Virus record (IMG/VR): IMGVR_UViG_3300035670_001338
Coordinates: 1-22,277 of that record
Length of the DNA stretch: 22,277 nucleotides
Strand: one strand, 5' to 3'
Source of the DNA: a virus
In this document: positions 1,689 through 16,089 of the stretch, in pieces
Numbering within the stretch: position 1 is the first letter of the stretch
Layout: every line of letters begins with the position of its first letter
Notes under the pieces: generated by a model
The model's database searches: none
Told to the model about the DNA's origin: nothing
Seen by the model: only the letters and a program-made list of their open reading frames with translations
Translations under genes and position numbers: made by a program

Positions 1689-1967
1689 TTAGCTCTCTCT
1701 CTTTACTGCTATTTGTAATAATTCGATTTGTAGCTCTCGAAGTGCCTCGGTTTCGTTGTCGGTTAGGTTTCGGGTTAGCCCAAAGTCTCGGTTTAGAAAC
1801 TTCAGGATTTCGTAAACATTTCGGCGTTTCAGGGCCAACATTGGTCGCCCAGGCTCTTCGGGGACTAGTTCTGGCTCTCTGAGTTCGACTTCTTGCTCTC
1901 CCTCGCAGATGTTACAAAAGGGGTTGCAATCGTAACCGCCTTCGTGTCTAGGGCAGATAACTAACAT
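1689..1967 (-). CDS. Small putative zinc-binding protein, 92 aa
   Basis: The N-terminus contains C5, H8, C14, C18 and C21, a compact Cys/His set that could bind one zinc ion. An acidic Glu/Pro-rich linker (about residues 22-42) leads to a C-terminal helical domain (about 45-92) of mixed charge. The start at 1967 overlaps the stop of the 26-codon gene upstream as TAATG. The family is not recognised. Small zinc-knuckle proteins of this size in phage early regions often bind host proteins or nucleic acid, but that is only analogy. Confidence 0.65.
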   Translation of the reverse strand: MLVICPRHEGGYDCNPFCNICEGEQEVELREPELVPEEPGRPMLALKRRNVYEILKFLNRDFGLTRNLTDNETEALRELQIELLQIAVKRES

Positions 1968-2047
1968 TACTCATCACCCCCAAAGACATGTCCCAAATAC
2001 AAAACGCCTAAAAACAAAAGTACAAAAGTGATACCTACAGTTTCCAT
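1967..2047 (-). CDS. Single-pass membrane micro-protein, 26 aa
   Basis: This 26-residue frame begins with ATG at 2047 and ends with TAA at 1967. Both ends overlap neighbouring genes in the TAATG arrangement, which is unlikely to occur twice by chance. Nearly the whole protein is one hydrophobic segment (about residues 4-22, rich in Leu, Val and Phe) followed by a short acidic tail. It would be a one-TM inner-membrane peptide. No family can be assigned at this length. Confidence 0.55.
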   Translation of the reverse strand: METVGITFVLLFLGVLYLGHVFGGDE

Positions 2048-2262: not shown

Positions 2263-2292
2263 AGTAGACAATACTGCGGGGCAGCGTGTCAA
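2263..2292 (-). promoter_or_regulatory. Sigma-70-type promoter of the left operon
   Basis: On the minus strand a perfect -35 box, TTGACA (2287-2292), is separated by 18 nt from a moderate -10 box, TCTACT (2263-2268). The predicted start of transcription is near 2256, about 40 nt before the first gene at 2214. No other strong promoter was found for the eight-gene left operon. Confidence 0.6.
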
Positions 2293-2303
2293 CTTTATTT
2301 TGG

Positions 2304-2321
2304 TAACGAATTCATAACGAA
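2304..2321 (-). promoter_or_regulatory. Direct repeat just upstream of the left promoter
   Basis: The heptamer TTCGTTA (minus strand) occurs twice, at 2304-2310 and 2315-2321, spaced 11 bp or one helical turn. It lies 11 bp upstream of the -35 box, a normal position for an activator site. Which protein would bind is unknown; the WhiB proteins of this window do not bind alone to such sites in known cases. Confidence 0.35.
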
Positions 2322-2340: not shown

Positions 2341-2354
2341 AGAACAAGTGTTCG
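2341..2354. promoter_or_regulatory. LexA (SOS) box 1, one mismatch
   Basis: The sequence AGAACAAGTGTTCG fits the Gram-positive/actinobacterial LexA operator CGAAC-N4-GTTCG except for the first base. It lies about 50 bp upstream of the -35 box of the left operon. Its centre is 43 bp from the centre of box 2, about four helical turns. Confidence 0.6.
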
Positions 2355-2383
2355 ACGATCTGCCGCTATCTAGGGGGGCTTGA

Positions 2384-2397
2384 CGAACAAATGTTCG
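2384..2397. promoter_or_regulatory. LexA (SOS) box 2, perfect palindrome
   Basis: The sequence CGAACAAATGTTCG matches the actinobacterial and Bacillus LexA/DinR operator CGAAC-N4-GTTCG exactly. It lies in the same 300-bp non-coding region as box 1. With two sites on the same helical face, cooperative binding or local silencing by the host LexA is plausible. Confidence 0.7.
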
Positions 2398-2514: not shown

Positions 2515-2838
2515 CTAAATCGGTTTGTTTCCTCGGCTCTCGTTGCAAGATTTATGAGCTGGCAAAAGTGGCGAGTTAGGATCTGCCGGTATTAGGTGGT
2601 CTGCTGTCCAAGGGTCATAGGGCTTGAAGCCTTCTCTGCAGATGTGACAGACAACTGCTGAGTCTCTTACTAGCTTTGCTCGTTTGCGATAGTCACCGGA
2701 GTACTGGCCTGTTGCTTTCTTCTTTGCAGCTCTCGCTGAATAGTCTCGCTTTGGCAGCTGATGATCCTCGCACCTGTTCCCGCCTCGTGTGAGCTTCCCG
2801 CAGACTAAGCAGGGAGCCTGGAAGTTGTAGCCCTTCAT
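2515..2838 (-). CDS. HNH endonuclease, 107 aa
   Basis: An N-terminal zinc finger is visible at C10, C13, C23 and H26. A basic linker follows, then an HNH domain: C64 and C67 as one metal pair, the catalytic D80-H81, then H95 with C98 and N99 closing the beta-beta-alpha-metal fold. HNH proteins nick or cut DNA; in phages they act in packaging or as homing enzymes. It starts with ATG at 2838, overlapping the stop of the FmdB-like gene as ATGA. Genome-end HNH proteins often sit next to terminase genes, but none is visible here, so packaging cannot be claimed. Confidence 0.85.
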   Translation of the reverse strand: MKGYNFQAPCLVCGKLTRGGNRCEDHQLPKRDYSARAAKKKATGQYSGDYRKRAKLVRDSAVVCHICREGFKPYDPWTADHLIPADPNSPLLPAHKSCNESRGNKPI

Positions 2839-11233: not shown

Positions 11234-12124
11234 TTAGCCCTTCTTGTGAATGATGAGGGCAGGAGTCCCACCACGCATCTGTCTAGAGGCTACCTTGACC
11301 GGAGGCTGTCCGTCAACTGTGACATACGCAGTTCTCGCATAACCCATTGTGTCGAGTGTTGCAGACTTGAGCATGTTGAGCTCTGCCTGAGCTTCGTCAA
11401 GCTTGCGCTGTGCGTTCCATAGGTTTATTCCTAGCTCACCAAGCTCTACTTCCCTGTCCTCGATGTCTGTGTTCATGCGCCTAACTGTCTGATAAGTCGA
11501 CTCTGATCCATCCCAGTCAGGCTTCATCTGAGTCTGTACCTTGTTCCAGAACCGAAGTATTGCGTCACGCTGTACCGACTGTTGAAATGCGTCAGCTTCA
11601 ACGAGCTGCTCAAAAGGCTCCATAGCAATCAAGCCGATAACATACGCCCTCTGTAGTCCGAGAACATCCAGGTAGTGCTGTACCTGCGCCATGTAGTGCT
11701 GAGGGATACCTTGCCAAGGGTAGCGAGCGGTCTTGACCTCAATCACAAACCATTCACCTGTTTCTTTGTTGTAGGCAACCCCATCAGGGTTAGCATGCAT
11801 GATGTCGAAGTCTTTAGCAGCGTAAGTCCCACAGCGATACACCTGTAGCTCAGGGTGCTTCTCTTGAAAGCGCTGAAGGATAGGTTCCTCTAGCCAGTTG
11901 CCAACTTCAGTCGCTGTATTGCCTTTGAACGAGTCCTCGATGAGCCCTGTCTTCTTCGCCCAGAGAGCGTATGCAGACTCCCAAGGGTTCAACCCTAGGA
12001 TTGTGCCCACCTCGCTACCGCCGATGCCTCTAGAGCGAACCTCGTGCCATTCAGGGCTATCTGATGAGAATGCCCCTAAGTAGTTTGCACCGAAGTTTTC
12101 TGAAGTGATGCTGATTGCTGTCAT
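11234..12124 (-). CDS. YqaJ-family recombination exonuclease, 296 aa
   Basis: The lambda-exonuclease/YqaJ nuclease core is clear: W26 and R30 followed by the GIGGSE block (33-38), E79/E80 in WLEEP, D114 in ANPDG, E129-V-K131 in VIEVKT, and Q147 with H150 in the AQVQHYLDV helix. These residues form the PD-(D/E)XK active site that degrades one strand of a DNA end so that the annealing protein can load. The C-terminal third is a helical extension. A strong AGGAGG ribosome binding site lies directly before the ATG at 12124. It is the first gene of the minus-strand DNA-metabolism block. Confidence 0.9.
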   Translation of the reverse strand: MTAISITSENFGANYLGAFSSDSPEWHEVRSRGIGGSEVGTILGLNPWESAYALWAKKTGLIEDSFKGNTATEVGNWLEEPILQRFQEKHPELQVYRCGTYAAKDFDIMHANPDGVAYNKETGEWFVIEVKTARYPWQGIPQHYMAQVQHYLDVLGLQRAYVIGLIAMEPFEQLVEADAFQQSVQRDAILRFWNKVQTQMKPDWDGSESTYQTVRRMNTDIEDREVELGELGINLWNAQRKLDEAQAELNMLKSATLDTMGYARTAYVTVDGQPPVKVASRQMRGGTPALIIHKKG

Positions 12125-12142
12125 TTTGACCTCCTAACCGAT

Positions 12143-12172
12143 ACCCTAGAGCAACGGAAGGACATTTTTGAA
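12143..12172 (-). promoter_or_regulatory. Possible promoter of the recombination genes
   Basis: On the minus strand TTCAAA (12167-12172) and TAGGGT (12143-12148) are 18 nt apart; TAGGGT resembles the TAN3T -10 boxes seen in actinobacteria. The predicted transcript would carry the AGGAGG site before the exonuclease start. The -35 box is weak and overlaps the TTG start of the divergent whiB gene. Confidence 0.35.
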
Positions 12173-12416
12173 AGAAGTCAGCAAAAAGTACATTGCGTTG
12201 CAATCTGCAATCATCAAACAAGGTGATGTGCCATGCTCGCAATACCCTGAGTTGTTCTTTCCAGAAGATTTACCAGTAGAGGCTGTAAGAGAAGCCGAGA
12301 AGCTTGCTATCTACCTATGTAAGACATGTCCCGTCCGAAAGCTTTGTCTTGACTATGCCATGACCGCCAGGGAGCCTTACGGCATCTGGGGTGGCACTAC
12401 TCCTGCCGACAGATAA
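12168..12416 (+). CDS. whiB: WhiB-family iron-sulfur regulator, 82 aa, no basic tail
   Basis: The four cluster-binding cysteines C23, C51, C54 and C60 are present in C-x27-C-x2-C-x5-C spacing, followed by the G72-I-W-G-G turn that is the family signature. WhiB proteins hold a [4Fe-4S] cluster and bind the sigma factor SigA to change promoter use; phage copies can act against host WhiB2. The protein stops eight residues after W74, so the basic C-terminal DNA-binding tail of most members is missing. The start is TTG, with GGAAGGA 5-10 nt before it. It is divergent from the recombination block. Confidence 0.9.
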   Translation: MKEVSKKYIALQSAIIKQGDVPCSQYPELFFPEDLPVEAVREAEKLAIYLCKTCPVRKLCLDYAMTAREPYGIWGGTTPADR

Positions 12417-12421
12417 AGAGA

Positions 12422-12454
12422 GAGGCCCGCCGTAAGGGGGTTACAGCGGGCCTC
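12422..12454. terminator. Strong hairpin after the first whiB gene
   Basis: A 9-bp perfect stem, GAGGCCCGC (12422-12430) with GCGGGCCTC (12446-12454), continues inward as GTAA/TTAC (12432-12435 and 12441-12444), with only a C/A mismatch between. It lies 6 nt after the whiB stop. On the minus strand it is followed by TCTCTCTTT, on the plus strand by a purine tract, so it fits an intrinsic terminator better for minus-strand transcripts, though it can act on both. Confidence 0.6.
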
Positions 12455-12518
12455 AGGAGAGAGAGACAAGATGAACTTATCAATTTGAAATGACTCAAAG
12501 GAAGCTATTTCGTTTATT

Positions 12519-12548
12519 ACTATACACATACTTTTGCTAGAAATGCAA
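12519..12548 (-). promoter_or_regulatory. Minus-strand promoter between the whiB genes
   Basis: TTGCAT (12543-12548) and TATAGT (12519-12524) on the minus strand are 18 nt apart, with +1 near 12512. A transcript would run antisense to the first whiB gene, through the hairpin, and toward the exonuclease operon. Its -35 box is 2 nt from that of the plus-strand promoter. Confidence 0.4.
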
Positions 12549-12550
12549 AT

Positions 12551-12580
12551 TTGACATTTTCAATAAACGAGTCCTATCGT
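12551..12580 (+). promoter_or_regulatory. Promoter of the second whiB gene, leaderless
   Basis: TTGACA (12551-12556) and TATCGT (12575-12580) are 18 nt apart. The -10 box ends 7 nt before the ATG at 12588, so the mRNA should start at or next to the start codon. No Shine-Dalgarno sequence is present, in agreement with leaderless translation. Confidence 0.7.
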
Positions 12581-12587
12581 TCATCAC

Positions 12588-12893
12588 ATGAAAATACACA
12601 TTCCTGCTGAACACCTATACATGAAGTTACAGAAAGCTATTGACAATGCTCCGGTAATCCCACCTTGCCAGGTAACTGATCCTGAGATTTGGTACGCCGA
12701 GAAACAAGAGATAGGTAATCAGTATCGCTTAGCTAAGAAGCTCTGTCAGGAATGCCCTGTAATCAGGCAATGCGGTGAGTATGCGCTTGTAGCTCAAGAG
12801 ATGGAAGGTTGCTGGGGCGGAATGTCTCCGAGAGAGCGTATGGCTATCTGGCGTAACCCAAAGGGTCGGCCTAAAACTGTGCAAAATGTATAG
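12588..12893 (+). CDS. whiB: WhiB-family iron-sulfur regulator with AT-hook-like tail, 101 aa
   Basis: C27, C53, C56 and C62 form the iron-sulfur cluster set, followed by the EGCWGGMSPRER turn (73-84) and a basic C-terminus containing K-G-R-P-K, which resembles the AT-hook of DNA-binding WhiB proteins. It should bind host SigA and promoter DNA. In contrast to the first WhiB it has the tail, so the two probably differ in function: one may direct DNA recognition, the other may only bind the sigma factor. It is convergent to the lysis genes. Confidence 0.9.
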   Translation: MKIHIPAEHLYMKLQKAIDNAPVIPPCQVTDPEIWYAEKQEIGNQYRLAKKLCQECPVIRQCGEYALVAQEMEGCWGGMSPRERMAIWRNPKGRPKTVQNV

Positions 12894-14610: not shown

Positions 14611-15081
14611 TTATGCTTTCGTGATGATGTAGAGAGATGCGGTGCTGTGTTGAACAAATCCTGTTCCTGCGCTGACAAGTTGGATGCTGCTGATTGCGCT
14701 GCTACCAAATTGTGCTGCGTAGATAGCTGAATAATAAGTTGAATTATTATTTTCAGTCACTACATCCCCACTAGCCGACTTGTTTGCAGAAGATGTGTAA
14801 TTAGGAAAATAAAACTCTCCGTTGCCGAAAGTGTTGGCTGTAAATGAGCTTGGAACAACATAAGGGTAAATCGCTGTTCCGCTTTGACTTCCAGGGGAAT
14901 AATAAAGTGACTTGAAAGCTGTTGAATCTGAGCTGTTTACTTTTAGATTTAGAACAACCGCAGAATCTCTAATAGAGAATTTCAACAACAAGTCCACTCC
15001 CGTCTGAGGTATCCCTGTGAACTCGATTGAAGCAGCCGCACCGGATCCGACTGTGACGGACTCAACTAAGACCATTCCCAT
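14611..15081 (-). CDS. Fibre-like minor tail protein, copy 3, 156 aa
   Basis: The N-terminus has the SVTVGSGAAASIEFTGIP pattern shared with the proteins at 15625-16089 and 16092-16661, and the end (AISSIQLVSAGTGFVQHSTASLYII) also matches them. All three lack Cys and are rich in Ser, Thr, Ala and Gly, like trimeric fibre or receptor-binding domains. The start overlaps the HNH stop as TAATG. It probably helps cell recognition, and sequence divergence between copies is high in the middle part. Confidence 0.65.
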   Translation of the reverse strand: MGMVLVESVTVGSGAAASIEFTGIPQTGVDLLLKFSIRDSAVVLNLKVNSSDSTAFKSLYYSPGSQSGTAIYPYVVPSSFTANTFGNGEFYFPNYTSSANKSASGDVVTENNNSTYYSAIYAAQFGSSAISSIQLVSAGTGFVQHSTASLYIITKA

Positions 15082-15623
15082 TATGCAAGCCTTTCTGGTG
15101 CGTATAAGTTCAAAATCATGATTGCGTATTCAACCTTATCTGATGGTCTTTGTCCTGCTGGTTGAGCGGTGTTCCATAGCTCTAGGTTCTCAGTCCTGTT
15201 ATCAAATGTATCACCGTTTTTATGGTGGACATTTTCACCTTTGACTAGCGGTCTGCCCAGCATTTCACTCATTACCAATCGGTGTTCGTAGACTGTGCCT
15301 TTAGCATCTGCCATCGGTGATTCTGGTGCTAGAACTTTTTTGTATTTAGCGCCCTTGTAGGTCTGCGGATTGCGAGCAACAATTTCGGGGTCACCATAAA
15401 TTGAATACCTGCGATTGTGCATCTGGCAATAACCACTAGAAAAGTGTGGCTTGAAGCAATCGTCTACGCTACAAAATTCGTGGATTCTAGCTCTACCCCT
15501 ATACCCAACAAAATTGACATCTCCATGGTTACGCCATCGTTTCCAATGCTTAGAGCAAAGACCTCTAGCCTTGACTAACTTTTCACAACCATCCTGAGAG
15601 CATGGTGCTGCTTTGCAAGGCAT
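15081..15623 (-). CDS. Free-standing HNH endonuclease with paired zinc fingers, 180 aa
   Basis: The ATG at 15623 is preferred: it follows the stop of the fibre gene by 1 nt, with GGAG about 9 nt upstream; an upstream in-frame ATG would lie in the fibre gene. Two identical-spacing fingers C-x4-C-x9-C-x2-H are visible at C8/C13/C23/H26 and C51/C56/C66/H69. The nuclease part has H114 in YEHRLVM and the NVHHKNGD (131-138) plus N142 and N146 of the HNH_3 type. Placed between paralogous fibre genes, it looks like a homing endonuclease. It has no role in tail structure. Confidence 0.85.
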   Translation of the reverse strand: MPCKAAPCSQDGCEKLVKARGLCSKHWKRWRNHGDVNFVGYRGRARIHEFCSVDDCFKPHFSSGYCQMHNRRYSIYGDPEIVARNPQTYKGAKYKKVLAPESPMADAKGTVYEHRLVMSEMLGRPLVKGENVHHKNGDTFDNRTENLELWNTAQPAGQRPSDKVEYAIMILNLYAPERLA

Positions 15624-15624
15624 T

Positions 15625-16089
15625 TTATGCAACTCCGTAAAGATAGAAAGTGCTTCCGGCGCTGTAATTACCATTTCCGAGAGTAGTAACCTCTAGTGCT
15701 GTTATTGCACTTGTGCTTGCCCACCTGTGAGCAGCCATAGAAACATTTGCTGTTGAATCATTTACTCGACTTAATACTGTTTTGTGTTTATCTGTCACTG
15801 AATAATCCATAAATTGCCACATAGATAGTCCACTTGTGCCATAGTTACTAGCACTAAACCAAGAAATTTCATCAAAAGTGCTACTAGCTGTGCTACTACC
15901 ATTTCCGGCTGCTCTTACATTGTAGTAAATACTAGAAGTATCAGAATTGACTCTGACTACTGTAACATTGTCAGTCTTGCAGACAAGCACTAAGTCCCTG
16001 TAATCCTGACTGATAGAGCTAAAGGTAACACTTGAAGCACTAGAGCTGAGAACGGTTGATGCGATTAGATCATAAGTTGGTGTGGGCAT
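15625..16089 (-). CDS. Fibre-like minor tail protein, copy 2, 154 aa
   Basis: The STVLSSSASSVTFSSISQDYRDLVLVCKT start and the AITALEVTTLGNGNYSAGSTFYLYGVA end match the other two fibre copies; the middle is more aromatic. Beta-rich, Ser-rich and without Cys except one, it fits a domain of the distal tail that binds the host surface. AAAGGA lies ahead of the ATG at 16089. The DNA is relatively AT-rich compared with the tape measure gene. Confidence 0.65.
   Translation of the reverse strand: MPTPTYDLIASTVLSSSASSVTFSSISQDYRDLVLVCKTDNVTVVRVNSDTSSIYYNVRAAGNGSSTASSTFDEISWFSASNYGTSGLSMWQFMDYSVTDKHKTVLSRVNDSTANVSMAAHRWASTSAITALEVTTLGNGNYSAGSTFYLYGVA

Follow-up and report, generated by a model that had tools for sequence, protein, structure and literature searches.

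Paired predicted LexA operators before a small-gene cassette in an uncultured phage, and a longer two-box element in its relatives

A few temperate phages are known to make use of the LexA protein of their host. In phage GIL01 of Bacillus thuringiensis, host LexA together with gp7 represses two promoters, P1 and the late P3 (PMC6182141), binding at P1 and at the tandem dinBox2 and dinBox3 of P3 (PMC6182141, PMC4551915); the LexA-binding co-factor gp7 and the activator gp6 assist this control. The antirepressors of Salmonella prophages are reported to be LexA-controlled as well (PMC3121763). In actinobacteria, the LexA operator of Streptomyces venezuelae reads tCGAAC-N4-GNNCGa (PMC9380542).

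We analysed an uncultured phage sequence, here called the window, which is a complete IMG/VR record of 22,277 bp, classed as linear. Two predicted LexA boxes in it share the 14-bp core of the actinobacterial operator and in part its outer T/A flanks (PMC9380542), while they differ from the typical operator in lying on a phage, as a phased pair and well upstream of a -35 element. As in GIL01, paired boxes are found at phage late-gene promoters in this family, the genes run mostly in one direction and no dedicated phage repressor is seen among the proteins scanned. The boxes of P3, however, lie within the promoter about two helical turns apart, whereas the pairs described here stand upstream of the promoter and 4 or 16–17 turns apart; in the window they are 48 bp (2341–2354) and 91 bp (2384–2397) upstream of the sole clear -35 and do not overlap the promoter. 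Furthermore, P1 also controls early genes, while here no boxes precede the early genes. Because box position, spacing and the lack of early-gene control differ, we do not file the window system as a member of the GIL01 type, although it appears to resemble GIL01 in its logic. The integrase and repressor of a temperate phage were not found in the gene map of the near-complete relative G016 or in the proteins scanned, which cover the window in part. Like the Salmonella antirepressors (PMC3121763), these phage genes would be wired to the host SOS response; those antirepressors reportedly act on a phage repressor, and none was seen here among the proteins scanned.

The box pair and its setting in the window

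The relatives of the window and the phage phiPsal1 measure 31–32 kb, and about one third of the genome is absent from this 22.3-kb linear fragment. All genes run leftward except two WhiB genes (12168–12893, plus strand). The leftward order begins with tape measure and tail genes, lysis genes, a YqaJ exonuclease, a RepO-like initiator, SSB and many small genes, and continues with an MRE11-like exonuclease, a Zn ribbon, an HNH endonuclease, a 300-bp gap and eight tiny genes that reach the left end. The replication and recombination operon extends leftward from 12124 to 3057. Both boxes sit in the 300-bp gap between the HNH gene and the small-gene cassette and are hence intergenic. The cassette consists of eight minus-strand ORFs from 2214 to 227, several of them joined by overlapping stop and start codons (Table 1). 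Another HNH endonuclease gene lies within the tail-gene region (15081–15674) and is likely a homing-type insertion. Relatives carry one to three WhiB genes, and in some of them the predicted LexA element adjoins these genes.

Table 1. Features of the window around the predicted LexA boxes, with the WhiB genes.
Feature	Position	Strand	Remarks
Cassette ORF, 75 aa	227..454	-	from the ORF list; without family
Cassette ORF, 43 aa	400..531	-	from the ORF list
Cassette gene, 107 aa	531..854	-	PHROG 31860 (unknown); homologues in L317 and L318 cassettes
Cassette gene, 166 aa	881..1381	-	without family
Cassette gene, 94 aa	1401..1685	-	PHROG 6246 (unknown); homologue in L317 cassette
Cassette gene, 92 aa	1689..1967	-	homologues in cassettes of L318 and L320
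26-aa ORF	1967..2047	-	start and stop overlap neighbours (TAATG); read from sequence
First cassette gene, 55 aa	2047..2214	-	without family; only relative in the contig of L002
Weak -10 candidate TCTACT	2263..2268	-	18-bp spacer; putative, read from sequence
-35-like TTGACA	2287..2292	-	read from sequence; TTGACA downstream of boxes also in L002, L320, L322, L329
GTTATGAATTCGTTAC, copy of the 11-bp-period direct repeat GTTAYCAAANYGTTAC	2303..2318	-	between boxes and promoter; conserved
Predicted LexA operator, downstream box AGAACAAGTGTTCG	2341..2354		1 mismatch; 17.3 bits
Predicted LexA operator, upstream box CGAACAAATGTTCG	2384..2397		0 mismatches to CGAAC-N4-GTTCG; 20.4 bits
HNH endonuclease	2515..2838	-	PHROG 5718, E 1.7e-6; syntenic gene immediately upstream of boxes
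WhiB genes, tandem pair	12168-12416 and 12588-12893	+	sole rightward genes with known family

A pattern search recovered all that an earlier note on this DNA had described here, namely one perfect box, one box with a single mismatch and a distance of 43 bp from centre to centre, and the eight small genes downstream were likewise found. The spacing corresponds to 4.1 helical turns and brings the two boxes to roughly the same side of the DNA, each with the CGAAC-N4-GTTCG core in intergenic DNA upstream of a promoter. The bare pattern itself is unexceptional: allowing up to two mismatches, CGAAC-N4-GTTCG matched 11 times in the whole window against a mean of 6.15 in shuffles. Since this loose pattern is not rare in the window, we built a scoring matrix from host-type operators, taking 15 boxes from streamlined Microbacteriaceae, the majority located at SOS genes. 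When the 22-kb window was scanned with this matrix, the next best site after the two boxes reached 8.3 bits. Sites scoring as high as the weaker box appeared 0.007 times per first-order Markov shuffle, and a box pair within 100 bp was seen in none of 300 shuffles.

The TTGACA named in the earlier note is present on the minus strand, but its -10 is weak, and a mechanical promoter scan of the window does not list it. The hexamer is kept in the 96% relative L002, and L320, L322 and L329 carry TTGACA-17-TANNNT at the corresponding place. Between boxes and promoter, the GTTATGAATTCGTTAC repeat is a candidate activator or second-operator site. Motifs of the GTTAYCAAANYGTTAC type follow the last box in L002, L317, L318, L319, L320, L322, L329 and L018/G017, and the repeat also stands upstream of some promoters that have no boxes (G016, G023), so that the boxes seem to have been added to a type of phage promoter. 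The GTTAYCAAA repeat may resemble the direct repeats of MtrA or GlnR. Its reading as a Pho box was discarded, the tandem motif being absent around pstS in candidate hosts, and a whole-genome search for the tandem gave one match, near a rhodopsin gene and at about chance level.

Host-type operators and conservation behind the HNH gene

The closest isolate sharing the gene order of the window is phiPsal1, a phage of Pontimonas salivibrio, a marine member of the Microbacteriaceae (PMC6106888), and we infer an aquatic Microbacteriaceae host for the window. LexA is present in 195 of 200 Microbacteriaceae genomes. The exact 14-mer CGAACAAATGTTCG occurs between the SRAP gene and dnaE2 in five small genomes of this family (G183, G039, G121, G170, G107), before lexA in G114 and before recA in G157 and G211, while AGAACAAATGTTCG, an A-first form like the box at 2341–2354, is found upstream of lexA in G039 and G223. 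A site of at least 8 bits was detected in 35 of 39 lexA upstream regions, a set that includes two comparators outside the family (Actinotalea, Mycolicibacterium), one genome counted twice and a few boxes that also served in building the matrix. Some of these regions hold double boxes overlapping at 13 bp, just as in the phages L320 and L322. SOS genes of the presumed host group, lexA and recA among them, hence carry the box sequence, and this match to operators of plausible hosts agrees, at the level of sequence, with the identification as LexA operators given in the earlier note.

Using the HNH gene upstream of the boxes, we fetched 22 relatives. The earlier note held that a lack of conservation in relatives would speak against its reading; boxes were found within 330 bp behind the HNH gene in seven of the 22 (the contig of L002, L317, L318, L319, L320, L322 and L329). 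The remaining 15 have no boxes at this place, showing that LexA control is not essential to the family. Where boxes do occur behind the HNH gene, they always precede a small-gene cassette, which in L318 and L319 leads to the terminase. Sites of at least 12 bits are 30-fold denser here than elsewhere (13 in 7,260 bp versus 12 in 200,183 bp), giving p 4e-13 for the local excess among relatives that are not independent of each other. L002 has the same box pair as the window at a spacing of 43, followed by 41 in L319, 179 in L317 and L318 and an overlapping 13 in L320 and L322; L329 has a single box.

A count of GAACANNTGTTC in 64 relatives, with 21 occurrences versus at most five for permuted palindromes, was dropped as main evidence, because most of the matches encode conserved protein sequence such as RRTDVLHP; after this codon effect was seen, only intergenic GAACANNTGTTC sites were counted. 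As for prophage relatives, the searched genome contigs returned only distant MRE11 homologues with at most 44% identity.

A long element with two boxes around a conserved core

In a widely spaced class, the two boxes lie 169–179 bp apart around a conserved non-coding core. This long form is found in many relatives before the major capsid gene (G010, L018, L351, L354, L356, L363 and others, at a spacing of 169/170 bp), behind the HNH gene (L317, L318), inside the cassette of L320 and of L322, between a pair of WhiB genes in G016 and, in L348, L361 and L364, 3' of the WhiB genes, where it faces convergent lysis genes and has no obvious downstream target. Ten of the elements are under 90% identical, with a mean identity of 60%. 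When a pattern was searched that specified nothing but GGTYTTGCCC, 14 bases and the second box, 21 stretches matched; upstream sequence is intact in 19 of them, and in every one of these the first box lies at 169, 170, 178 or 179 bp. An insertion near the first box sets the two length classes apart, by about one turn of the helix. Examples are L322:8118-8305, L018:9743-9930 and L318:858-1053. The element also contains a weak direct repeat whose copies lie about 70 bp from each other.

After its first box, the window pair has TCAAGCCCCCCTAGA in common with L317, and judged by sequence it looks like an internally shortened form of the long element. An RNA element was rejected after RNAalifold gave no compensatory pair on 15 elements; an Rfam search gave no match to the element, its one hit being a tRNA elsewhere in a relative. 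A small protein between the boxes was rejected as well, as the frames carry stops and have no starts shared across members. The element was not found in INPHARED, and PLSDB gave only short matches. One of these, about 30 bp on the Rothia terrae plasmid p4 (L376:1041-1070), matches the core of the L322 element with TTTTGCCCAGTAAATACGCGGG shared; it lies inside a long inverted repeat of this 2.5-kb plasmid, has an E of 0.02 and could reflect chance or a DNA site common to both.

It is possible, and we put this forward tentatively, that aquatic-actinobacterial phages carry a cis-element unmatched in the searched phage and plasmid collections, in which paired LexA operators 16 or 17 turns apart flank a conserved core. 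It may have moved among genome sites including the capsid promoter and might let phages without integrase or repressor gate their late and accessory genes by the SOS response, with the window holding a shortened version of four turns. Paired, helically phased boxes would make a clean operator design. In viruses more generally, at least 120 stretches (L082-L201) carry two perfect CGAAC-N4-GTTCG boxes 28–58 bp apart, and A-NN-T inner bases in both boxes occur in 51 of 154 pairs among the matches listed. No helical phasing is seen in the 154 listed pairs at 28–57 bp, so phasing is at most a trait of the pairs of the window family, where it rests on few independent spacings.

Probable regulation by the host SOS response and competing readings

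The identity of the boxes with host SOS operators, together with their conservation in relatives, makes LexA binding and SOS control of the cassette likely. The boxes are intergenic, and such pairs recur upstream of the capsid operon in relatives. Against this reading stand the position of the boxes clear of the best promoter, which is unlike textbook LexA repression, and the long elements of L348, L361 and L364 that precede convergent genes. Taking these points together, we consider it fairly probable that the boxes are operators of host LexA, which would keep the cassette promoter repressed until RecA is activated; we infer that LexA binds them, that it acts as a repressor and how it would do so.

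In the undamaged cell, LexA dimers on both boxes would keep this promoter off. Because the boxes lie upstream of the -35 and not over it, we propose that repression would probably work by blocking the GTTAYCAAA-repeat site and the recruitment of RNA polymerase just downstream, either by excluding an activator or by forming a LexA-bound DNA structure. DNA damage, or single-stranded DNA made during infection, would activate RecA and lead to cleavage of LexA, upon which the cassette would be expressed, possibly with the late genes behind it. The same logic could apply to the capsid operon in relatives. The virus thus probably reads the SOS alarm of its host to time part of its gene expression. 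If this is true, damage to DNA in surface water, as by sunlight, would act through the host repressor to gate phage expression directly. Such pairs recur in uncultured phages of common aquatic actinobacteria without visible lysogeny genes, at accessory-gene and at capsid promoters.

The earlier note went further and suggested that host LexA may serve as a substitute switch. Taken as a lysogeny switch of the GIL01 kind, this would mean that the phage persists as an extrachromosomal prophage and that host LexA, at these and other boxes, is the chief repressor maintaining lysogeny. GIL01 itself, whose capsid and lysis genes have tandem LexA boxes at their promoter, sets a precedent (PMC6182141), and the gene content is compatible with it: neither the G016 gene map nor the scanned proteins, which cover the window in part, show an integrase, and no repressor, CI-like proteins included, was seen in the scanned window proteins (a subset of the ORFs of a fragment) or the selected G016 proteins, the sole exception to such absences being a 53-aa excisionase/MerR-like HTH protein in near-complete G016. 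But the matrix scan detected no LexA box near 12124–12168 or elsewhere before the replication and recombination operon, nor between the exonuclease and the WhiB genes, and most HNH relatives have no boxes. Moreover, phiPsal1 is described as a lytic phage that disappeared from the culture and gave no indication of integrating (PMC6106888), and cI/cro-like HTH proteins are encoded in its own genome. With an early operon free of boxes and with neither integrase nor recognisable repressor among the G016 genes covered, this reading is the weaker one, and we regard it as unlikely. Expression gated or timed by SOS in the course of infection is no less likely than lysogeny control, and SOS gating of accessory and late genes fits better than LexA in the place of a lysogeny repressor; indeed, the window boxes precede the accessory cassette, with the terminase beyond it in L318 and L319.

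We find it less probable still that the boxes serve as decoys which grow in number as the phage replicates, titrate out host LexA and thereby release helpful SOS functions such as nucleotide supply, DnaE2 and recombination. Sites of the high-affinity type, a variable element location and the long elements without an obvious facing gene (L348, L361, L364) would suit a decoy, yet most copies stand upstream of same-strand genes, near a promoter and a second conserved motif, neither of which a decoy needs, and each genome has just two to four boxes. That the palindromes instead serve a different regulator, encoded by the phage or by the host, which shares the GAACANNTGTTC core by chance, is very improbable given the 14-bp identity with sites at host SRAP/dnaE2, lexA and recA and no phage repressor in the proteins scanned, even if phage regulators may have similar operators and the conserved 170-bp core suggests that further proteins bind there.

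Apart from the boxes, the window holds three copies of a AAATTCGGTTCGAG-core repeat on the transcribed strand (2439–2459, 2492–2512, 2954–2974) and two related ACCGAACCGAAATC copies (2472–2485, 2875–2888), which lie within the Zn-ribbon gene and in the stretch immediately upstream of the boxes. The AAATTCGGTTCGAG repeats are possibly operators of a phage regulator. Similar oriented arrays occupy the same place in relatives; in L320, ATTCGGT lies on one strand in 17 of 18 cases, and one such repeat falls within a TTGACA-17-TAGTCT spacer.
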